DNA of 64,000 bases from Rhodovulum kholense. Lineage in GTDB: Bacteria > Pseudomonadota > Alphaproteobacteria > Rhodobacterales > Rhodobacteraceae. The stretch covers positions 124,001-188,000 of the forward strand of contig NZ_QAYC01000008.1 in the NCBI RefSeq assembly GCF_003053725.1. Reading direction: 5' to 3'. Made by a program: the position numbers and the translations under genes. Below the pieces are notes generated by a model. It did no database searches and was not told the DNA's origin. It saw only the letters and a program-made list of their open reading frames with translations. This document shows positions 13,614 to 25,392 of the stretch, one piece after another (position 1 is the first letter of the stretch; every line of letters starts with the position of its first letter).

Positions 13614-13959
13614 ATGAGATCACCTCTTGCTTTGCCTCCGGCCCTCGTGGCGCTGCTTTGCAGCGGCACCGCGCAGGCTTACACCACATACCAGATGCTT
13701 GTCGCATCCCGCGTCAACGAGAGCGCGGGCCGGGAATTCTTCCTGTTCGATTACGCCAGCGAGGCCGACCCGATCGCAGGGACCGTCGATTACAGGGCGA
13801 CGCAGATCAACCTGAACTCGAACCACAAGGCGGTCGGGTTCCTGTCCCATGAGACCGGGTGAGACCGGGTCCGGTCGCGGCACGCCCTCGCCCGTGCGCC
13901 TTCCGGCGTCGGGCTGGCTGCCGGCGGGCGCGGTCGGCCTTCTCGCCCGGCGGGCGCGC
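13614..13959 (+). pseudogene. small exported protein with VPLPA-CTERM-like tail, frameshifted by a 10-bp duplication
   Basis: The frame opens behind GGAGAGA with a clear signal peptide (MRSPLALPPALVALLCSGTAQA) and runs 82 codons to a TGA at 13860. The stop arises inside a perfect tandem duplication of GAGACCGGGT (13851-13860 and 13861-13870). Removing one copy joins the frame to VRLPASGWLPAGAVGLLARR (13894-13953), which resembles the VPLPA-CTERM sorting signal of Rhodobacterales: Leu-Pro-Ala, a Gly-Trp, a hydrophobic helix, and Arg-Arg at the end. The joined frame has no stop soon after the Arg pair, so the tail has also decayed. A short 82-residue secreted product could still be made. Whether any exosortase partner exists cannot be seen here. 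Confidence 0.6.
13851..13870. repeat. 10-bp tandem duplication causing frameshift
   Basis: GAGACCGGGT is present twice head to tail. Ten bases shift the frame by one and create the TGA that ends the upstream frame. An assembly error is possible but would have to mimic a clean duplication. Confidence 0.85.
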
Positions 13960-14118
13960 CTGACCGGCGCCCCTGGCGAACCACGAGACCGGACGCGAAA
14001 CTTGCGTCAGACAGGTCGTTTCGGCCGACCGGAGAAAAGCGCCGTGCGCCCGGCCGTGCCAGGGGACCCGACAGAGCCCCTGGCCGCAGGCGGCAGCCAC
14101 CCCCAGTGGCCCCGTGCC
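13960..14118. other. intergenic region between the broken VPLPA gene and paaZ
   Basis: No gene is seen in these 159 bases. The two flanking genes converge here. G/C-rich inverted segments are present but none is followed by a T-run, so I do not call a terminator. Confidence 0.5.
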
Positions 14119-16185
14119 TCATTCCCCCGTGAGGGGCCAGGTCTTCGCGACCAGCGTCAGGACATCGTAAAGCGCGACTGTCTCGTCCTTCTGGTTGGTC
14201 ACCCGGCAGTCCCAGCGAACCTCGCCATACTCGGCCGTCTCGCGCGGGTTGATCTCCTTGCAGGTCAGGCGGACGCTCAGGCTGTCGCCGAAATAGACCG
14301 GCGTCAGGAAGCGCAGGGTGTCGACCCCGTAATTGGCCAGCACCGGCCCCGGCGCGGGATCGACGAAAAGCCCGGCGGCGAAAGAGGCGATCAGATAGCC
14401 ATGGGCGACGCGATCCTCGAAGAACGGGTTCGCGCGGGCGGCCTCGCTGTCCATATGGGCGTAGAAGCTGTCGCCGGTGAACTCGGCGAAATGCTCGACA
14501 TCGGCCCTGGTCACCTCGCGGGACGCGGTCACGACCTGATCGCCGATCCTGAGCTCGCCCAGCGATTTGCGGAACGGATGCGTCCCCGTTTGCGCCTCGG
14601 CGCCCTCGATCCAGCGGCCGGTGACGGCCGACAGAAGCCGGGGCGCGCCCTGCACCCCCGTCCGCTGCATGTAATGCCGGACCGCGCGCATGCCGCCCAG
14701 TTCCTCGCCGCCGCCAGCCCGGCCCGGCCCGCCATGGACCAGCGGCGCCAGCGGGGAGCCATGCCCGGTCGAGCTTCTGGCCGAAGCACGGTTGCCGATC
14801 ATCACCCGGCCGTGGAACGGCGCCATGCCGATCACCATCTCGGCGGCAAGATCCGGGTCGTTGGTGAAGACCGAGGCGACCAGCGATCCCTTGCCGCGCC
14901 GTGCCAGCGCCACCGCCTCGGCGGCATCGCGATAGGGCATCAGGGTGGCCACCGGCCCGAACGCCTCGACGTCGTGGACGGCCTTTGCCGCGAACGGGTC
15001 GGCGCAATGCAGCAGCACCGGGTTGAGGAAGGCCCCGGCCCCGGCATCGCCCGAGACGACCGACACCGCCTCGGGGTCGCCGCAGACGATTCTGGCGTCG
15101 GCGGCCAGTTCGGCGATGCGCGCGCGCACCTCGGCGCGCTGATCGAGGCTGGCCAGCGGCCCCATCCGCACCTCGGCATCGCCCGGCAGCCCGACCGGCG
15201 TCTTGGCAAAGCGCGCGGCCAGCCCTTCGATCACGGCGTCTTCCAGCCCGGCTGGCACCAGAACGCGGCGGATGGCGGTGCATTTCTGTCCGGCCTTGGC
15301 GGTCATCTCGCGCGCCACCTCGCGGACAAAAAGGTCGAATTCCGGCGTGCCCGGCACCGCATCGGCGCCCAGCACCGAGGCGTTGAGGCTGTCGGCCTCC
15401 ATCGTGAAGCGGGTTGCCTGCGCGACCAGCGCGGGGTGGCGTTTCAGCATCTGCCCGGTCGCGGCCGAGCCGGTGAAGGTCACCGCATCCTGGCCGGTCA
15501 CATGGTCCAGAAGATCCCCGGCCGAGCCCGCGACCAGCTGCAGCGCACCCGCGGGCAGGATCCCGGTCTCGAGGATGCGGCGCACAACCAGTTCGGTCAG
15601 ATAGGCGGTCTGGCTGGCGGGTTTGACAAGGCAGGGCACGCCCGCGATCAGCGAGGGCGCGATCTTTTCCAGCATGCCCCAGACCGGGAAGTTGTAGGCG
15701 TTGATATGGATCGAGATGCCGGTCAGCGGCGTCAGGATGTGCTGGCCCGCAAAGCTGCCGTCGCGCGACAGCGGCTCGACCGGACCTTCGGTCAGCACAC
15801 GGGTATTGGGCAATTCGCGCCGCGCCTTCGAGGCCAGCGTCAGAAGCGTGCCGATGCCGCCCTCGATGTCGATCCAGCCATCGGCGCGGGTGGCGCCGGT
15901 ATGAAGGCTTTCGGCGTAGAACTCTTCCTTCAGCTCCATCAGCCTGAGGCCCAGCGCCTTCAGCATCAGCGCCCGTTCATGGATCGTCATCGCCCGCAGC
16001 GCGGCACCGCCCGTCCGCCGCCCCCAATCCAGCGCCGCGCCAAAATCGAGCCCCTCGGACCCGATCCGCGCCACCGGACGGCCGGTTGCGGCGTCGAGAA
16101 GGGTCGCGCCCTCGCCCGCCCCCGCCTGCCAATGGCCAGAGAGATAGCTTTCGAGGCGGCGGGGAATGGTCGCCGATCCGTCCAT
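14119..16185 (-). CDS. paaZ: oxepin-CoA hydrolase / 3-oxo-5,6-dehydrosuberyl-CoA semialdehyde dehydrogenase (PaaZ)
   Basis: The 688-residue protein joins an aldehyde dehydrogenase domain to a C-terminal MaoC-like hydratase. The dehydrogenase spans about residues 1-520, with [11 protein letters not shown] near 236, catalytic Glu263 in TMEADSLN and nucleophile Cys302 in GQKCTAIRR. The hydratase spans about 535-688, with [14 protein letters not shown] and [16 protein letters not shown]. PaaZ hydrolyses the oxepin ring and oxidises the resulting semialdehyde. Both domains look intact. The ATG at 16185 follows AAGGAGCACCCC. It is the last gene of the paaJ-ABCDE operon. Confidence 0.95.
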
Positions 16186-16199
16186 GGGGTGCTCCTTCG

Positions 16200-16952
16200 T
16201 CAGTTCAGGTTCAGGCGGGTCAGCTCCGCCTCGGCCAGCGCCCGCCACTCGGCCAGCAGTGCCTCGTTCGTCCGGTGTCTCAGCCCCATGCGCCGCAAGG
16301 TTTCGAAGCGGGGCGAGTCCGCCTGCCCGAAGGTGGCGGCGACGCGCGGCATCCAGTAGGCGATGGCGCGGCGCGCCTCGGTCCGGCCTGCCTCGCCCGC
16401 CGTCAGTCTGGCCAGCCCCTCGAGGCCAAGCTCGGCATGGCGGGCCTCGCGCGGGGCGATCTCGCGGATCGCCTCGGCGAAGGGCGTGTACGAGGCGTGG
16501 GCCAGTTCCCCCAGCTGCACCCCGGTCGCAAGCCCCATCAGCACGTTCATCACGACCGCGTCGACCCAACCTTGCAGCGGATAATGGAAGACCGACAGGC
16601 GCATGTCGGCGCCCTGCCGGTGCGCACCGATCTCGGCCTCGCGGGGACCGCGCGCGGCCCAGTCATGGGCTTGCTCATAGCGGGTCTTGTCGGTGCCGAA
16701 GGCGGTCATCAGGTCCAGCACCCGTTCGGCATGATCGGCCTTTTCCAGCACGATCCGGCTGGCGGCGATCCGTTCCCTGATGCCGGGCGCCCGGTTGATC
16801 GCATCGGCAAAGCCCGCCGAGCCCGCCAGTTCGCTGTCGACGAAGGACGACATCAGCCGCAACAGCTCGCCCCGATAGCGCGCGGGCACGTTGGTCGGCG
16901 CGGTCAGCTTGCCACCCCGGGCGAGGTAGTCGTCGAGGCTGATCTCGGTCAT
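16200..16952 (-). CDS. PaaA-like ferritin-fold protein of the paa operon with altered diiron site
   Basis: This 250-residue protein belongs to the phenylacetate catabolic (PF05138-type) ferritin-like family and aligns without gaps to PaaA of this same operon over its first ligand helices. SEVVG of PaaA matches SELAG (Glu41), and RAP...QDEAGH matches RAP...LEKADH. At the position of PaaA Glu89, a metal ligand, it has Lys71, while His74 is kept. A second motif, PREARH (Glu169, His172), matches PaaA EESFH. It starts 7 nt after paaE (ATG at 16952, behind GTGAGGA; an ATG at 16970 overlapping paaE is possible) and precedes paaZ by 14 nt. It is probably a non-catalytic or altered epoxidase partner. 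I do not know a characterised function. Confidence 0.8.
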   Translation of the reverse strand: MTEISLDDYLARGGKLTAPTNVPARYRGELLRLMSSFVDSELAGSAGFADAINRAPGIRERIAASRIVLEKADHAERVLDLMTAFGTDKTRYEQAHDWAARGPREAEIGAHRQGADMRLSVFHYPLQGWVDAVVMNVLMGLATGVQLGELAHASYTPFAEAIREIAPREARHAELGLEGLARLTAGEAGRTEARRAIAYWMPRVAATFGQADSPRFETLRRMGLRHRTNEALLAEWRALAEAELTRLNLN

Positions 16953-16959
16953 GGCGTCC

Positions 16960-18036
16960 TCACTCGTCATAGCTGACCACCAGACGGTCGCTCAGCGGGT
17001 AGCACTGGCAGGTCAGCACATAGCCCGCGCGGACCTCGTAATCTTCCAGCGCATGGTTGGTCAGCATCTCGACCTCGCCCTCCAGCACCTTGGCCCGGCA
17101 GGTCGAACAGACCCCGGCCTTGCAGGAAAAGGGCGCATCGAGATCGGCGGCGATGGCGGCTTCCAGCAGGCTTTGCCCGGTCTTCGGCATGCGAAAGCTG
17201 CGGGTGGTGCCGTCCAGCGTGACGCTGGCTTGGGTCGCATTGGCGGTGTCGGTCTGCGCGACCGAAACCGCCGGACGCCTGGCGCGGCCGGGCTGGGTCG
17301 ACAGGAACAGTTCGAACCTGATCCGGTCGTCGGTCAGCCCGTGCCGGCGCAGCCCGTCGGCCACCGTCAGCATCATCGCCTGCGGGCCGCAGATGAAGGC
17401 CAGATCGACCGAGGCCGCGTCGATCCAGCCGGCGAACAGCCGGTCGATCTTCTGCGCGTCGATCCGGCCGGTGAACAGGTCGATCTCCTGGGTTTCCGAG
17501 CCCAGCACATGGATCACCGCAAGCCGCCCGAGATGGGTGTTCTTCAGGTCTTCCAGCTCTTCGCGGAACATGATCGAGCTGACCTGCCGGTTGGCATAGA
17601 CCAGCGTGACCCGCGCGCCGGGCTCGCGGCTCAGCACCGTGCGGAGGATCGACAGCACTGGCGTGATGCCCGATCCGGCGGCGAAGGCCAGGTAATGGCG
17701 CGCCGCAGTCGGGTCGAGCGGGGCGTGAAACTTGCCCATCGGCGGCATCGCCTCGAGCACGTCGCCGGGCCTGAGGTCCTCGTTCGCCCAGGTCGAGAAG
17801 GCGCCGCCCGCGACCCGCTTGATCCCGACCCGGAGGCAGCCGTCGTCGAGCCCCGAGCAGATCGAATAGCAGCGGCGCAGCTCTTCCCCGTCGAAGGCCC
17901 GGCGGAAGGTCAGGTACTGGCCCTGGGTGAAGGCAAAGGCGGCACGGTCGGCCTCGGCCGGGTCCAGCGTCAGGACCACGGCATCGCGGGTGTCGCGGCG
18001 GATGTCGGTAACGGTCAGCGGGTGAAAACGGGCCAT
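16960..18036 (-). CDS. paaE: phenylacetyl-CoA epoxidase reductase subunit (PaaE)
   Basis: The 358-residue reductase has a ferredoxin-NADP reductase module (RRCYSICS for flavin near residue 55, AAGSGITPVLSIL for nucleotide near 120). Its C-terminal plant-type ferredoxin domain carries the [2Fe-2S] ligands in CKAGVCSTC plus a later Cys in LTCQC. PaaE passes electrons from NADPH to the PaaA diiron centre. The start at 18036 is chosen because GAGGGG precedes it and longer starts would overlap paaD. It lies 11 nt after paaD. Confidence 0.94.
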   Translation of the reverse strand: MARFHPLTVTDIRRDTRDAVVLTLDPAEADRAAFAFTQGQYLTFRRAFDGEELRRCYSICSGLDDGCLRVGIKRVAGGAFSTWANEDLRPGDVLEAMPPMGKFHAPLDPTAARHYLAFAAGSGITPVLSILRTVLSREPGARVTLVYANRQVSSIMFREELEDLKNTHLGRLAVIHVLGSETQEIDLFTGRIDAQKIDRLFAGWIDAASVDLAFICGPQAMMLTVADGLRRHGLTDDRIRFELFLSTQPGRARRPAVSVAQTDTANATQASVTLDGTTRSFRMPKTGQSLLEAAIAADLDAPFSCKAGVCSTCRAKVLEGEVEMLTNHALEDYEVRAGYVLTCQCYPLSDRLVVSYDE

Positions 18037-18047
18037 GGCCGCCCCTC

Positions 18048-18572
18048 TCAGATACATTTGAAATAGTCGAAGGGTTCAAGGCAGTCGCGGCAGCGCCAGG
18101 CGGCCTTGCACGGGGTCGAGCCGAACTGGCTCAGCCGTTCGGTCCGGTCCGAGCCGCAGCGCGGGCAGGCCACCGAAAGCCCGTCCGCGAGGCTGCGCGC
18201 GCGGGCCGCCCCCGGCATCGCGGCACTGCCCGGCACCGGGGGGGCGATGCCGAACGCCCTCAGCTTTTCGCGCGCCTCGGGGCCCAGCCAGTCCGACGTC
18301 CAGGGCGGCGACAGCTGCCGGTCGATCCGCAGCTTGCCGATGCCGCGCTCCCGCAGGGCGCGTTCGATGTCGAGCGTGATGATCCCGGTCGCGGGGCAAC
18401 CCGAATAGGTCGGCGTGACTGTCACCACCAGCGTGTCTCCCTGCCAGGCAACGTCGCGCACGATGCCCAGATCGGTCAGGCTGATGACCGGGATCTCGGG
18501 GTCGGGCAGCTCGGCCAGCCACGCCCAGACCTGCGCCGTCGCGGGCCGGTCCACGGTTTCACCATGTGGCAT
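18048..18572 (-). CDS. paaD: phenylacetyl-CoA epoxidase assembly protein (PaaD)
   Basis: The 174-residue protein has a MIP18/DUF59 domain (LPDPEIPVISLTDLGIVRDV, TPTYSGCPAT) and a C-terminal cysteine-rich tail (CPRCGSD, CRDCLEPFDYFKC). PaaD is needed for iron-site or iron-sulfur maturation of the epoxidase and is not part of the purified complex. The ATG at 18572 overlaps the end of paaC by 14 nt. Confidence 0.92.
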   Translation of the reverse strand: MPHGETVDRPATAQVWAWLAELPDPEIPVISLTDLGIVRDVAWQGDTLVVTVTPTYSGCPATGIITLDIERALRERGIGKLRIDRQLSPPWTSDWLGPEAREKLRAFGIAPPVPGSAAMPGAARARSLADGLSVACPRCGSDRTERLSQFGSTPCKAAWRCRDCLEPFDYFKCI

Positions 18573-19356
18573 CGGGATAGGCCCGTTGCAGGAACTGCAT
18601 CTCGGCCAGCAGAAGGCCCAGCGCCTCGCCATGGACGCCGCTGCGCCCGCCGCTGCGAAAACGCGCCGTGTCGGGCAGGGTCAGCGTCGCCTCGGCCAGC
18701 ACCGCCTCGACCCGCGCGCGCCAGCCCGGTTCCAGCGCCGCCGGATCGGGCGCGATCCCGGCCTCCGCGGCGGCGGCATCGGTCGCGTCGCCCCGGAACG
18801 GCTCGCCGGTGAAGGGCCAGAGCCGGGTCAGCGCGGCCTGCATCCGGGCATGGCTTTCGGGCGTGCCGTCGCCAAGCCCGATCACCAGCGTTTCGGACCG
18901 GTCGAGGTGATAGGCCACCTCTTTCCGGGCCTTGGCGGCGATCTCGGCCACGCGCGGGTCGGTCGAGGCCGCCAGCCCCGCCAGCAGCTCGGCATGCCAG
19001 GCATCGAACAGGAACTGGCGCATCACGGTGACGGCGAAGTCGCGGTTCGGCTGTTCGGCCAGCAGCAGGTTGCGAAACCCGCCCGCATCGCGGCGGAAGG
19101 CCAGCGCGTCGGCGTCGCGCCCCGCGCCCTCGACCTCGGCGGCAAGCCCCAGCCACAGGGTCGCCTGCCCGATCAGGTCGAGCGCGACATTGGCCTGCGC
19201 GATATCTTCCTCCAGCGTCGGCGCGTGGCCGCACCATTCCGACACCCGGTGCCCGAGGATCAGCGCGCTGTCCCCGACCCGCAGCAGCGTCTCGAACAGC
19301 ACGGCATCGGCCGACAGCGTCGTTTCTGGCATTGTCGTTTCTGTCAGAGCGGACAT
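18559..19356 (-). CDS. paaC: phenylacetyl-CoA epoxidase structural subunit (PaaC)
   Basis: The 265-residue helical protein carries the PaaC features GHRVSEWCGHAPTLEEDIA and ANVALDLIGQATLWLGLAAE near residues 25-60, and WHAELL further on. PaaC is the non-catalytic ferritin-like partner that forms the heterodimer with PaaA. Its ATG shares one base with the paaB stop (TGATG). A longer upstream frame exists only as antisense-type noise. Confidence 0.93.
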   Translation of the reverse strand: MSALTETTMPETTLSADAVLFETLLRVGDSALILGHRVSEWCGHAPTLEEDIAQANVALDLIGQATLWLGLAAEVEGAGRDADALAFRRDAGGFRNLLLAEQPNRDFAVTVMRQFLFDAWHAELLAGLAASTDPRVAEIAAKARKEVAYHLDRSETLVIGLGDGTPESHARMQAALTRLWPFTGEPFRGDATDAAAAEAGIAPDPAALEPGWRARVEAVLAEATLTLPDTARFRSGGRSGVHGEALGLLLAEMQFLQRAYPDATW

Positions 19357-19640
19357 CACATGTGCCCCACGTCGTCGGGAATGTCGAAGAAAGTCGGGTG
19401 CCGGTAGACCTTGGCGTTCGAGGGCTCGAACAGCGGCCCCTTGTCCGAGGGCGCCGAGGCGGTGATGTCGTTCGAACGCACAACCCAGATCGAGACGCCC
19501 TCGTTGCGCCGCGTATAGACGTCGCGGGCGTTCTGGATCGCCATTTCGGCGCTTGGCGCGTGCAGGCTGCCGACGTGGCGGTGGTTCAACCCGTGCTGAC
19601 CGCGGATGAAGACCTCCCAGAGGGGCCATTCGCTGGACAT
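19356..19640 (-). CDS. paaB: phenylacetyl-CoA epoxidase bridging subunit (PaaB)
   Basis: The 94-residue protein starts MSSEWPLWEVFIRGQHGLNH and has RRNEGVSIWVVRSNDI and FEPSNAKVYRHPTFFDIP, all typical of PaaB, which bridges PaaAC heterodimers. It has the normal length for the family and sits 30 nt after paaA. Confidence 0.95.
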   Translation of the reverse strand: MSSEWPLWEVFIRGQHGLNHRHVGSLHAPSAEMAIQNARDVYTRRNEGVSIWVVRSNDITASAPSDKGPLFEPSNAKVYRHPTFFDIPDDVGHM

Positions 19641-19670: not shown

Positions 19671-20654
19671 TTATTCGGCCGCGTGCGCGGCGGCACGCTT
19701 TTCGGCATGGGCCATCAGCCCCTCGCGGACCCAGGCGCCGTCCTCCCAGGCCTCGATCCGCGCCTCCATCCGTTCGGCATTGCAGGGGCCATTGCCCTTC
19801 AGCACCTCGTAGAATTCCGACCAGTCGGGCTGCGAGAAGTCGTAGCCGCCCTTTTCCTCGTTCCAGACAAGGTCCGGGTCGGGGATCTCGAGCCCGAGGA
19901 ACCGGGCCTGCGGCACGGTCTGGTCGACGAATTTCTGGCGCAGCTCGTCATTGGTGTTGATCTTGATCTTCCAGGCCATCGACTGGGCGGAATGGACCGA
20001 GTCCTTGTCGGAAGGTCCGAACATCATCAGCGACGGGTACCAGAACCGGTTCAGCGCATCCTGCGCCATCGCCTTCTGGTCGGCCGTGCCCCGCGCCATG
20101 GTCATCATGATCGAATAGCCCTGGCGCTGGTGAAAGCTCTCCTCCTTGCAGATCCGCACCATGGCCCGGGCATAGGGCCCGTAGGAGGTCCGCTGCAGCG
20201 GCACCTGGTTCATGATCGCGGCGCCGTCGACCAGCCAGCCGACCGCGCCGATATCGGCCCAGGTCAGCGTCGGATAGTTGAAGATCGAGGAATATTTCAT
20301 CTTCCCCGCCAGCAGCATTTCCGTCAGCTCGTCGCGGCTGACCCCCAGCGTCTCGGCGGCGGAATAAAGGTAAAGCCCGTGCCCGGCTTCGTCCTGCACC
20401 TTGGCCAGCAGGATCTGCTTGCGTTCCAGCGTCGGCGCGCGGGTGATCCAGTTGCCCTCGGGCAACTGACCCACGACCTCGGAATGGGCATGCTGGCCGA
20501 TCTGGCGGATCAGCGTTTTGCGATAGCCCTCGGGCATCCAGTCCTTGGGCTCGATCCGCTCGCCCCGGTCGATCCGGTCCTGAAAGGCGCATTCCTCGGG
20601 GGTCATCTCGTCCCGGGCCTTGCCGCCCTCGGATGTCACCATCTGCGCATACAT
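19671..20654 (-). CDS. paaA: phenylacetyl-CoA epoxidase catalytic subunit (PaaA)
   Basis: The 327-residue protein has diiron ligands in the expected places: Glu59 in HSEVVG, Glu89/His92 in [18 protein letters not shown], and Glu172/His175 in [12 protein letters not shown]. It epoxidises the aromatic ring of phenylacetyl-CoA at C1-C2. Substrate contacts typical of PaaA ([20 protein letters not shown]) are present. It follows the thiolase gene by 18 nt and leads paaBCDE. Unlike the paralogue at 16200-16952, no ligand is replaced. Confidence 0.95.
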
Positions 20655-23893: not shown

Positions 23894-24940
23894 TCAGGCC
23901 GTCTCGACCTCGATGGTGACATGCGACAGCCGCGGGAGGTGCATGAGCCGCTTGCGGTAATCCGCAACCGGTCGCGGATCGTCATCGGCAATCGCCACGA
24001 TGGCGGCGCGGTGGCCCGGGCCAAGCTGCCAGACATGCAGGTCGACTACGCGGGCGCCGTCGGTCTCGATGGCGGCACGGATCTTCTGGGGCAGGGTCTC
24101 GGAGCCGGGGACGAAATCGACCAGCACCCCGCCCGCGTCGCGCATCAGCCCGTAGGACCAGCGCGCGATCAGCAATGCCCCCAGCATGCCGATGATCGGG
24201 TCGAGCCAGACCCAGCCGAAGGCCCGCCCCGCGACCAGCGCCGCAATGGCCAGCACCGAGGTCAGCGCATCGGCCAGCACATGCAGATAGGCCGCGCGCA
24301 GGTTGTGATCGACCTCGTGGGCGTGATCATGTCCATGGCTGTGCCCATGATCGTGCCCGTGACTGTGCCCATGATCGTGCGGGCCCTGATGCAGCAGAAC
24401 CGCGCTGCCGACATTGACCGCCAGCCCGATCACGGCAACGGCGATGGCCTCGCCGAAATGAATGCCGACCGGGTTCACCAGCCGCATCAGGCTTTCCCAA
24501 CCGATCAACAGCGCGACGACGCCCAGCACTACCGCGCTGCCGAAGGCCGCCAGATCGCCCAGCTTGCCGGTGCCGAAGGTAAAGCGCGGGTCATGGGCGT
24601 GTCGGCGCGCGACCATGTAGGACACCGCCGCAATCGACAGCGCCGCGGCATGGGTCGCCATGTGCCAGCCATCGGCCAGCAGCGCCATCGACCCGAAGAC
24701 CGTGCCCGCCGCGATCTCGATCACCATCATCGTCGCGGTGATGCCGATCACCAGCCAGGTGCGTCGCGCGTTCCGGTCGTGATCTGCGCCGAGGAACACA
24801 TGATCCGGCCCGCCCGGACCGCGCGGATGGCAAAGACCGGCGGCCGAGCCGTGAGCGTGGCCATGGCCGTGATCGTGATCGTGATCGTGATCGTGAAGAT
24901 GGTCGTGCGGGGAGCCGGAGGTGTGCGGGTGATCGTGCAT
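23894..24940 (-). CDS. dmeF: cation diffusion facilitator, DmeF-like Co/Ni efflux
   Basis: The 348-residue CDF transporter has six predicted membrane segments and the metal-site motif ADGWHMATHAAAL near residue 90, with a matching HVLADALTSV later. It also has very long His/Asp-rich stretches at the N-terminus and in the loop between helices IV and V. Exporters of this DmeF type pump Co(II) and Ni(II) from the cytoplasm. The gene follows the CsoR/RcnR-type regulator gene by 8 nt, as in dmeRF operons. Metal choice is by family resemblance only. Confidence 0.88.
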   Translation of the reverse strand: MHDHPHTSGSPHDHLHDHDHDHDHGHGHAHGSAAGLCHPRGPGGPDHVFLGADHDRNARRTWLVIGITATMMVIEIAAGTVFGSMALLADGWHMATHAAALSIAAVSYMVARRHAHDPRFTFGTGKLGDLAAFGSAVVLGVVALLIGWESLMRLVNPVGIHFGEAIAVAVIGLAVNVGSAVLLHQGPHDHGHSHGHDHGHSHGHDHAHEVDHNLRAAYLHVLADALTSVLAIAALVAGRAFGWVWLDPIIGMLGALLIARWSYGLMRDAGGVLVDFVPGSETLPQKIRAAIETDGARVVDLHVWQLGPGHRAAIVAIADDDPRPVADYRKRLMHLPRLSHVTIEVETA

Positions 24941-24948
24941 GATCTGGC

Positions 24949-25221
24949 CTATTTCAGATAGGTGCGCAGGACCGAGGCAAGCTCTGCGCCGCCCTTTTCG
25001 CGGCCGGTCTCGTCCTCGATCAGGATGACATGGTGGCGAAGGTGGTCCTCGATCAGTTCCTGGGTCAGCCCCGTCGTGGCGCCCCGGACCGAGGCCACCA
25101 GCTGCAGGATCGCGCCGCAGTCCTTCTCGGCCTCGATGGCCCGTTCGATGGCCTCGATCTGCCCCTTCAACCGGCGCACGCGCGCCAGCAATTTGGGCTT
25201 GTCCTTGGTAAGATGCGACAT
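24949..25221 (-). CDS. dmeR: CsoR/RcnR-family metal-sensing repressor, DmeR-like
   Basis: The 90-residue all-helical protein has RVRRLKGQIEAIERAIE, the CsoR/RcnR DNA-binding face. It also has His/Cys ligand positions: an N-terminal His3 (MSHLTKD), Cys in KDCGAILQ, and DHLRHHVI. That pattern is closer to RcnR/DmeR (Ni/Co) than to copper CsoR. The start at 25221 gives the family length; an ATG at 25233 adds four residues. The operator at 25240 lies directly upstream. Confidence 0.85.
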   Translation of the reverse strand: MSHLTKDKPKLLARVRRLKGQIEAIERAIEAEKDCGAILQLVASVRGATTGLTQELIEDHLRHHVILIEDETGREKGGAELASVLRTYLK

Positions 25222-25239
25222 CGGATCGTCCATATAGGT

Positions 25240-25256
25240 ATAGGGGGTACCCCTAT
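25240..25256. promoter_or_regulatory. dmeRF operator candidate
   Basis: ATAGGGG-GTA-CCCCTAT is a perfect inverted repeat with 7-bp arms. G-tract/C-tract centres with flanking AT are typical of CsoR/RcnR-family operators. A TTGATC 17 bp upstream of the site (minus strand) would place the -10 region inside it, so repressor binding should block the promoter. Confidence 0.65.
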
Positions 25257-25392
25257 CATGCGACCCTTGTCGGATCAATCCCCGTCGGCGGGACCCGATT
25301 TCCCATTCCAATTATTGAATTCGTTTGTGGGCGACCTTATCCTTCGCCTGTCCGGGGCAATACGGCCCCGGTCCAGTCAGGGAGACCGGCCA

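Follow-up and report, generated by a model that had tools for sequence, protein, structure and literature searches.

A lysine in the former iron site of a PaaA/PaaC-fold protein: a putative metal-free pseudo-hydroxylase encoded beside phenylacetate genes in alphaproteobacteria

Introduction

In PaaA of Escherichia coli, the catalytic subunit of phenylacetyl-CoA epoxidase, the diiron ligands are E42, E72, H75, D126, E155 and H158, and a lysine bridge connects K68 with E49, E72 and D126 (PMC4498308). The PaaA homologue PaaC contains no iron (PMC7497051), and helices B and C of PaaA and PaaC join the two subunits (PMC9493321). An exchange of ligands is described for the class Ie R2 proteins, in which three ligand glutamates are replaced (QSK/VPK), one of them by lysine; these proteins are metal-free, and co-expression of NrdI serves to make a DOPA residue (PMC11846895).

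In a survey of 2026 PaaA and PaaC are taken together as a single architecture, a third kind not being mentioned in the part of it that was available (PMC13186573). The protein described here, called X, is likewise not mentioned in the available parts of three other papers (PMC9007349, PMC6739347, PMC2653477), and a functional description of it was not found in the literature searched (open-licence papers). X was noticed in a stretch of 64,000 nucleotides from Rhodovulum kholense, in the following called the window. What is new here is that X is, as predicted from its residues, a pseudo-hydroxylase subfamily of PF05138. Many alphaproteobacteria carry the gene beside genes assigned to phenylacetate degradation, and at the position aligned with the iron site the lysine is unchanging.

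Gene X and Its Operon

X is encoded on the reverse strand of the window (16200–16952) and is, from its translation and an AF2 model, a PF05138 protein of 250 amino acids and a putative pseudo-hydroxylase. Its start codon is the ATG at 16952; an alternative upstream ATG at 16970 would run into paaE. The gene for the reductase, paaE (16960–18057; TIGR02160, 436.7 bits), ends 7 bp upstream of X, and paaZ (14119–16185; TIGR02278, 1002.5 bits) follows 14 bp downstream. The same strand carries paaA, encoding the catalytic epoxidase subunit (19671–20654; TIGR02156, 524.4 bits), paaB (19356–19640; TIGR02157, 142.9 bits), paaC, encoding the structural subunit (18559–19356 with the start as translated; TIGR02158, 268.4 bits), and paaD, the start of which is uncertain (18048–18632; TIGR02159, 187.1 bits). 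Every member of paaABCDE scores above its family cut-off.

X matches PF05138 (PaaA_PaaC) with 72.8 bits (E 3.3e-20; gathering score 28.5 bits) and falls short of the cut-offs both for PaaA (TIGR02156, 60.6 versus 280 bits) and for PaaC (TIGR02158, 17.9 versus 133.35 bits). With PaaA of the same operon it shares 25% identity (BLASTP, E 5e-13), which is far beyond chance. The initial annotation had taken the gene product for an additional protein of this family outside the PaaA-E set, and this is supported.

An 836-aa open frame on the forward strand (13849–16359), antisense to paaZ and X, is probably an effect of the high G+C content and not a gene. Elsewhere on the reverse strand of the window lie a gene for a cation-efflux-like protein with His-rich stretches (23894–24940) and, beside it, one for a small regulator of the metal-responsive type (24949–25311), both judged by eye from their translations.

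The orthologue of X in Paracoccus denitrificans PD1222 is PDEN_RS23920 (WP_011751025.1), which is annotated, as are the X proteins in most annotated plasmid records, as "Phenylacetic acid catabolic protein"; a Marinibacterium record names the gene paaA_2.

The Former Metal Site

In a profile alignment residues 5–88 of X, comprising the first two core helices, lie without gaps on PaaA, and so do the two later ligand helices, X having a 15-residue insertion between the helix pairs. Lys71 of X falls on Glu89 of the window PaaA (E. coli Glu72), His74 on His92, and Glu41, Glu169 and His172 on Glu59, Glu172 and His175, respectively. Pairwise BLASTP alone places a one-residue gap close to Lys71; phmmer of X against PaaA in the PDB gives the same placement as the profile alignment. 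The gap-free alignment over the ligand helices, with Lys71 on Glu89, is thus as it was first drawn.

Residues were counted in an alignment of 97 X rows and 96 PaaA rows and recounted over 96 distinct X, the rows of L002 and L043 being the same sequence from the same contig; the row of L138 is truncated by the end of its contig and has no C-terminal half, so that late residues are counted over 95. Lys71 (codon 16740–16742, like all codons given here on the reverse strand), at the place of the PaaA ligand E72, is invariant (96/96); a survey of its conservation had been set beforehand as a check. At the place of the ligand D126 all 95 sequences with a letter have glycine (Gly140, 16533–16535). 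Two of the six PaaA ligands are therefore replaced throughout. Glu169 (16446–16448; PaaA Glu155) and His172 (16437–16439; PaaA His158) are found in 95 of 95, Glu41 (16830–16832; PaaA Glu42) in 88 of 96, with Ala in three, Gln in three, Asp in one and Thr in one, and His74 (16731–16733; PaaA His75) in 92 of 96, with Asn in four. The statement of the initial annotation that these four ligands are kept is right for the window protein and wrong for the group as a whole. Nor is the exchange of a single residue, which it implied, supported, since D126 and the lysine bridge, both overlooked, are lost as well: K68 is replaced by Ile67 (95/96) and E49 by Phe48 (96/96), and the two other partners by Lys71 and Gly140.

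In the X proteins of L137 and L139 neither Glu41 nor His74 is present, yet Lys71, Glu169 and His172 are retained, from which it follows that the constrained set is Lys-Glu-His and not the metal set. Because both residues are missing in these two members, it is very probable that X is a pseudo-hydroxylase that holds no metal, and a site without metal that is closed by a salt bridge would be the simplest reading of the residue pattern. It is very unlikely that X is catalytic through an altered site with either one metal or a mixed pair on Glu41, His74, Glu169 and His172; all four residues are present in the window protein and in most members, but Glu41 and His74 are changed in 8 and 4 of the 96 sequences and Lys71 in none.

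The column of Lys71 is occupied by Glu in PaaA and in two further PF05138 groups, Y and W (see below), and by Leu in PaaC, so among the groups examined a lysine at this column marks X alone. A precedent that had been put forward, a lysine in the vestigial site of E. coli PaaC, has to be dropped, for both the window PaaC and PaaC in the PDB (1otk) have leucine there.

The phenyl-orienting Phe of PaaA (F108) corresponds to Phe122 of X, which is kept in 90 of the 95 distinct X with a letter; Arg101 (96/96) and Arg118 (95/95) are invariant. A ligand-binding role of X would fit the retained Phe equally well. X could then be a protein that binds or handles the reactive epoxide or phenylacetyl-CoA, passing it to PaaG or PaaZ or affording protection, and not a subunit of an oxygenase. 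The epoxide is unstable and is toxic when it accumulates (PMC7497051, PMC9493321), and such a function agrees with the three conserved residues; the Phe is, however, also found at this column in other PF05138 groups, e.g., in W. A handling function is the main alternative to the role proposed below; we consider it unlikely and return to it with the gene neighbourhood.

Predicted Structure

The AF2 model of X, calculated with 56 orthologue rows as input, has a pLDDT of 90.2 and a pTM of 0.88. Its top match in the PDB is PaaA (4ii4_A; TM 0.85, rmsd 2.6), followed by SSO1313 (4mud; TM 0.77) and then by PaaC chains (TM 0.67–0.71).

By our own mapping, helices B and C are probably the two long helices that come first in X. 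With a mean entropy of 0.61 (B), 0.83 (C), 0.96 (E) and 1.13 (F), as compared with 1.19 for the whole protein, B and C vary less than the other two ligand helices of X. In PaaA, taken as control, conservation is the same for B, C and E (0.24, 0.24, 0.23). The conservation of B and C in X is not specific for an interface, since both helices also hold the ligand site; on the far faces, E (0.57) is more conserved than B (0.76), and C (1.11) is about average.

Gene Neighborhood

The neighborhood of X was compared in 97 loci with an X match above 120 bits (87 orthologue rows, the five loci from genomes without a detected epoxidase and five more that were fetched); the counts are over the 97 rows, in which the genome of L002/L043 is entered twice. 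A paaE gene on the same strand lies upstream of X in 92 loci, in 91 within 150 bp and in L004 at 195 bp, and paaZ begins at most 250 bp downstream in 77, part of the remainder being short or cut loci. Of the tight placement between paaE and paaZ seen in the window, the position after paaE is thus the part that recurs, that before paaZ being looser. In two Xanthobacter loci (L028, L036), in Notoacmeibacter (L034) and in a metagenome-assembled genome of the Beijerinckiaceae (L045) X follows paaE and is not followed by paaZ. As paaE is kept where paaZ is absent, X is tied more closely to the epoxidase end of the pathway than to PaaZ, and a role as partner of PaaZ, which we had considered, is weakened. 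The same four loci speak against X as a handler of the epoxide, a function for which the 77 loci with paaZ close behind X would otherwise count.

A second aldehyde dehydrogenase gene, paaN, lies at most 400 bp from paaG in all 32 operon loci that have PaaN at at least 50% identity. It is found, mostly beside a bifunctional PaaZ, in L173 (16273–17922), for example, and in 32 further X loci. In P. denitrificans PD1222 it is likewise near paaG; in the window, inspected by eye, it does not adjoin paaG.

Distribution and Evolution

A scan with one genome per species yielded 229 stretches that encode a relative. The best 80 of these 229, which were kept, are 65–95% identical and come, according to their record titles, mostly from Rhodobacterales and Hyphomicrobiales, but Salinisphaera and Spiribacter are also represented. 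Of 198 genomes sampled from the family to which the window belongs, 90 have a PF05138 match, 38 of them with X and 52 without. Beside X, each of the 38 shows one more PF05138 match, weaker and of the PaaA kind, and the 52 lacking X have only such a weaker match; in the 20 X-less loci that we picked from the 52 and fetched, paaABCDE is present in every case. X is, therefore, dispensable and accessory to paa operons, as 52 of the 90 genomes with a match in this family sample do without it. In wider samples it was found in 9 of 385 genomes of the class (at least 49% identity) and in 6 of 299 genomes of the phylum.

In a tree of PF05138 proteins X forms a clade of its own (support 100/100), separate from those of PaaA, PaaC, Y and W, and a recent duplication of PaaA is rejected on this ground. 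The sister group of X is unsure because long branches meet in this tree. For a tree of PaaA, PaaC and PaaE the 71 X-containing loci in which all three are complete were thinned to 36, and the 20 loci lacking X were all kept; the presence of X changes only 4 times over the tree, compared with a mean of 16.6 when the labels are shuffled. This indicates that X is tied to one operon lineage and was gained or lost a few times. A clean case of absence is L126, in which paaZ directly adjoins paaE.

Between the window and its near relative Rhodovulum visakhapatnamense (L043) the dN/dS of X is 0.26, the highest of six operon genes compared (paaA 0.05, paaE 0.08, paaZ 0.11, paaC 0.12, paaB 0.02). This value, and the absence of X from many paa operons, would be expected of a decaying PaaA paralogue without a role. 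That X is such a relic is nevertheless scarcely credible: against it stands the dN/dS of 0.26 itself, 65 residues are invariant over 87 orthologue rows, the place in the operon is retained over several families and also in Salinisphaera and Spiribacter (L033, L049), and X is one clade outside PaaA.

Genomes in Which X Occurs Without a Detected Epoxidase

In five genomes with X (G291, G299, G334, G395 and G580) PaaA and PaaC were not found, all matches to PF05138 being below 100 bits, and neither was a match to PaaB. In four control genomes PaaA and PaaC score above 300 bits each and PaaB 142–145 bits. The five genomes are drafts of 120–350 contigs with a stated completeness of 90–96%; loss of PaaABC through incomplete assembly is possible for any single genome, but improbable for the five together. 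In the orders of G580, G395, G291 and G334, represented by 4, 2, 1 and 2 genomes, of which 2, 1, 1 and 1 have X, further genomes of this kind were not found.

In all five loci homologues of paaG, paaI and paaK are directly downstream of X, with an extra crotonase gene between X and paaG in L129 and with paaK split over two frames in L132. L129 and L133 additionally have paaH and paaJ; in L133, PaaG, PaaI, PaaK and PaaN are above the NCBIfam cut-offs, and L132 contains a PaaN-like fragment. The position of X just upstream of paaG, apart from the crotonase gene of L129, would suit a handler of the epoxide. Divergent from X is, in five of five loci, a flavodoxin gene recognized by homology, PF00258 being confirmed in the two that were tested. 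A flavodoxin of this type was not found in the remaining X loci examined, i.e., it is a neighbor of X in 5 of 97.

The flavodoxin raises the question whether X, without a metal, could have a redox function in partnership with flavodoxin, in the way of class Ie R2 and NrdI. A ligand Glu is replaced by Lys in both X and class Ie R2 (PMC11846895). The divergent gene in all five loci would agree with such a function, but no such flavodoxin was found in the other X loci examined, and a conserved Tyr is missing at His+4, which we take to be the place of the radical Tyr of R2 and where X has Val78. We regard this as still less probable than catalysis at an altered metal site.

All five genomes encode Y, a PF05138 protein of approximately 270 amino acids (mutual identity 73–93%) with both EXXH motifs in each case. 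In the alignment of Y from L128 the residues E42, K68, E72, H75, E155 and H158 are kept, and Thr stands at D126 and Val at E49. Adjoining Y in all five is the gene of a small protein, YB. Its AF2 model has four helices (pLDDT 80), and matches in the PDB reach no better than E 0.45; YB as a PaaB-like protein or a known electron carrier was discarded, there being no Pfam or NCBIfam match. Another intact Y was not found over 385 genomes of the class, nor an orthologue-grade match in 299 genomes of the phylum. In G337, a genome without X, there is a broken Y in two pieces in different frames with internal stops (C27, 17757–18215). A fair count excludes one genome because the Y query itself comes from these five genomes, and gives four further genomes with Y, all among the eight further genomes with X in 384. 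A co-occurrence of this kind has a probability by chance of about 8e-8, calculated by hand with kinship ignored, G299 and G580 sharing a genus.

The genes of Y and YB lie beside a PaaX homologue in L128 (1771–4187), L130 (9437–12062) and L134 (7887–10400); the PaaX homologue of L128, the one of the three that was tested, scores 319 bits (TIGR02277 cut-off 264.55). In L131 and L132 a PaaX homologue was not found, and Y-YB is there approximately 4–8 kb from X.

Each of the five genomes also encodes one protein of a group W of PF05138 (approximately 240 amino acids), on a contig different from that of X (L144, L147, L153, L156, L157); another W is in L010 (G043). The representative in L147 has all six ligands of the PaaA type. 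W, too, could be a catalytic partner.

The Y-YB pair is a candidate for an alternative phenylacetyl-CoA oxygenase. It is possible, if on the improbable side, that X is a subunit shared by two phenylacetyl-CoA oxygenases, being added to PaaABCDE in most genomes and forming in the five, together with Y as a second diiron-type protein, YB and flavodoxin, an alternative flavodoxin-driven ring epoxidase that feeds PaaG, PaaI and PaaK. The retention of X in genomes in which the search for the usual enzyme was negative hints that the same chemistry has a second route. It also bears on the description of X as a dedicated component of the operon in the initial annotation, a fair guess in view of the recurring tight place after paaE; the protein is accessory, and it is not strictly a component of PaaABCE, as the five genomes have X and no PaaA, PaaB or PaaC was found in them.

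Proposed Role of X

We propose, with a confidence somewhat short of even, that X is a metal-free pseudo-hydroxylase with the PaaA/PaaC fold which acts as an accessory subunit in the oxygenation of the phenylacetyl-CoA ring. The computed basis consists of the predicted fold, the replacement of two of the six ligands throughout the group and of Glu41 and His74 together in L137 and L139, the invariance of Lys71, Glu169 and His172, the single clade and the neighboring paaE or flavodoxin gene. X is taken as a second PaaC-like partner near the electron donor because its iron site is closed and helices B and C vary little. The ammonium group of Lys71 would replace the charge of the metal and hold the buried Glu169 and usually Glu41. 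Via helices B and C, X would pair with a catalytic PF05138 subunit, which in the window operon would be PaaA and in the genomes without a detected epoxidase probably Y. In the complex X might tune assembly, docking of the reductase or flavodoxin, or coupling; it would be an add-on to the oxygenase and not a core part.

Against a role as subunit stand the close operons without X (L126) and its evolution being faster than that of its neighbors (0.26 versus 0.02–0.12). Against Y as the catalytic partner stand the missing Asp126 and Glu49 of Y and the broken Y in G337, which has no X.

X is a conserved extra part of a well-studied catabolic pathway and would be an example from nature of a diiron site in a monooxygenase fold that is shut by a buried lysine. 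From the genomes without a detected epoxidase it seems that phenylacetyl-CoA may be oxidized by other means than the textbook PaaABCE as well. Surveys that take the PF05138 architecture as the mark of PaaA and PaaC, as does, in its available part, that of 2026 (PMC13186573), could miscount X.

Comparison With Known Systems

With PaaA (TIGR02156) X has in common the fold (TM 0.85), the gap-free ligand helices, Glu41, His74, Glu169 and His172, and Phe122 at the place of F108. Unlike PaaA, it has Lys at Glu72 and Gly at Asp126, lacks the lysine bridge, and is without the C-terminal extension (250 versus 327 amino acids).

SSO1313 of Sulfolobus solfataricus (PDB 4mud), a PF05138-like protein of approximately 235 amino acids, represents a short form of the fold (TM 0.77 to X), but has Glu at the column of Lys71 (phmmer alignment). 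We know of no function assigned to it.

NrdI, the partner of class Ie R2, is flavodoxin-like. Class Ie R2 and X have a Lys at a ligand Glu in common, and in five loci flavodoxin is a gene neighbor of X; R2 belongs, however, to a different family, has three glutamates changed, and is the only one of the two for which a partnership, that with NrdI, is proven. The parallel may serve as a lead only.

PaaC (TIGR02158) has the same fold as X, is encoded in the same operon, is of similar length and contains no iron. It differs from X in having Leu where X has Lys at the Glu72 column, and the two form separate clades. Of the systems compared, PaaC is the likeliest model for how X works.
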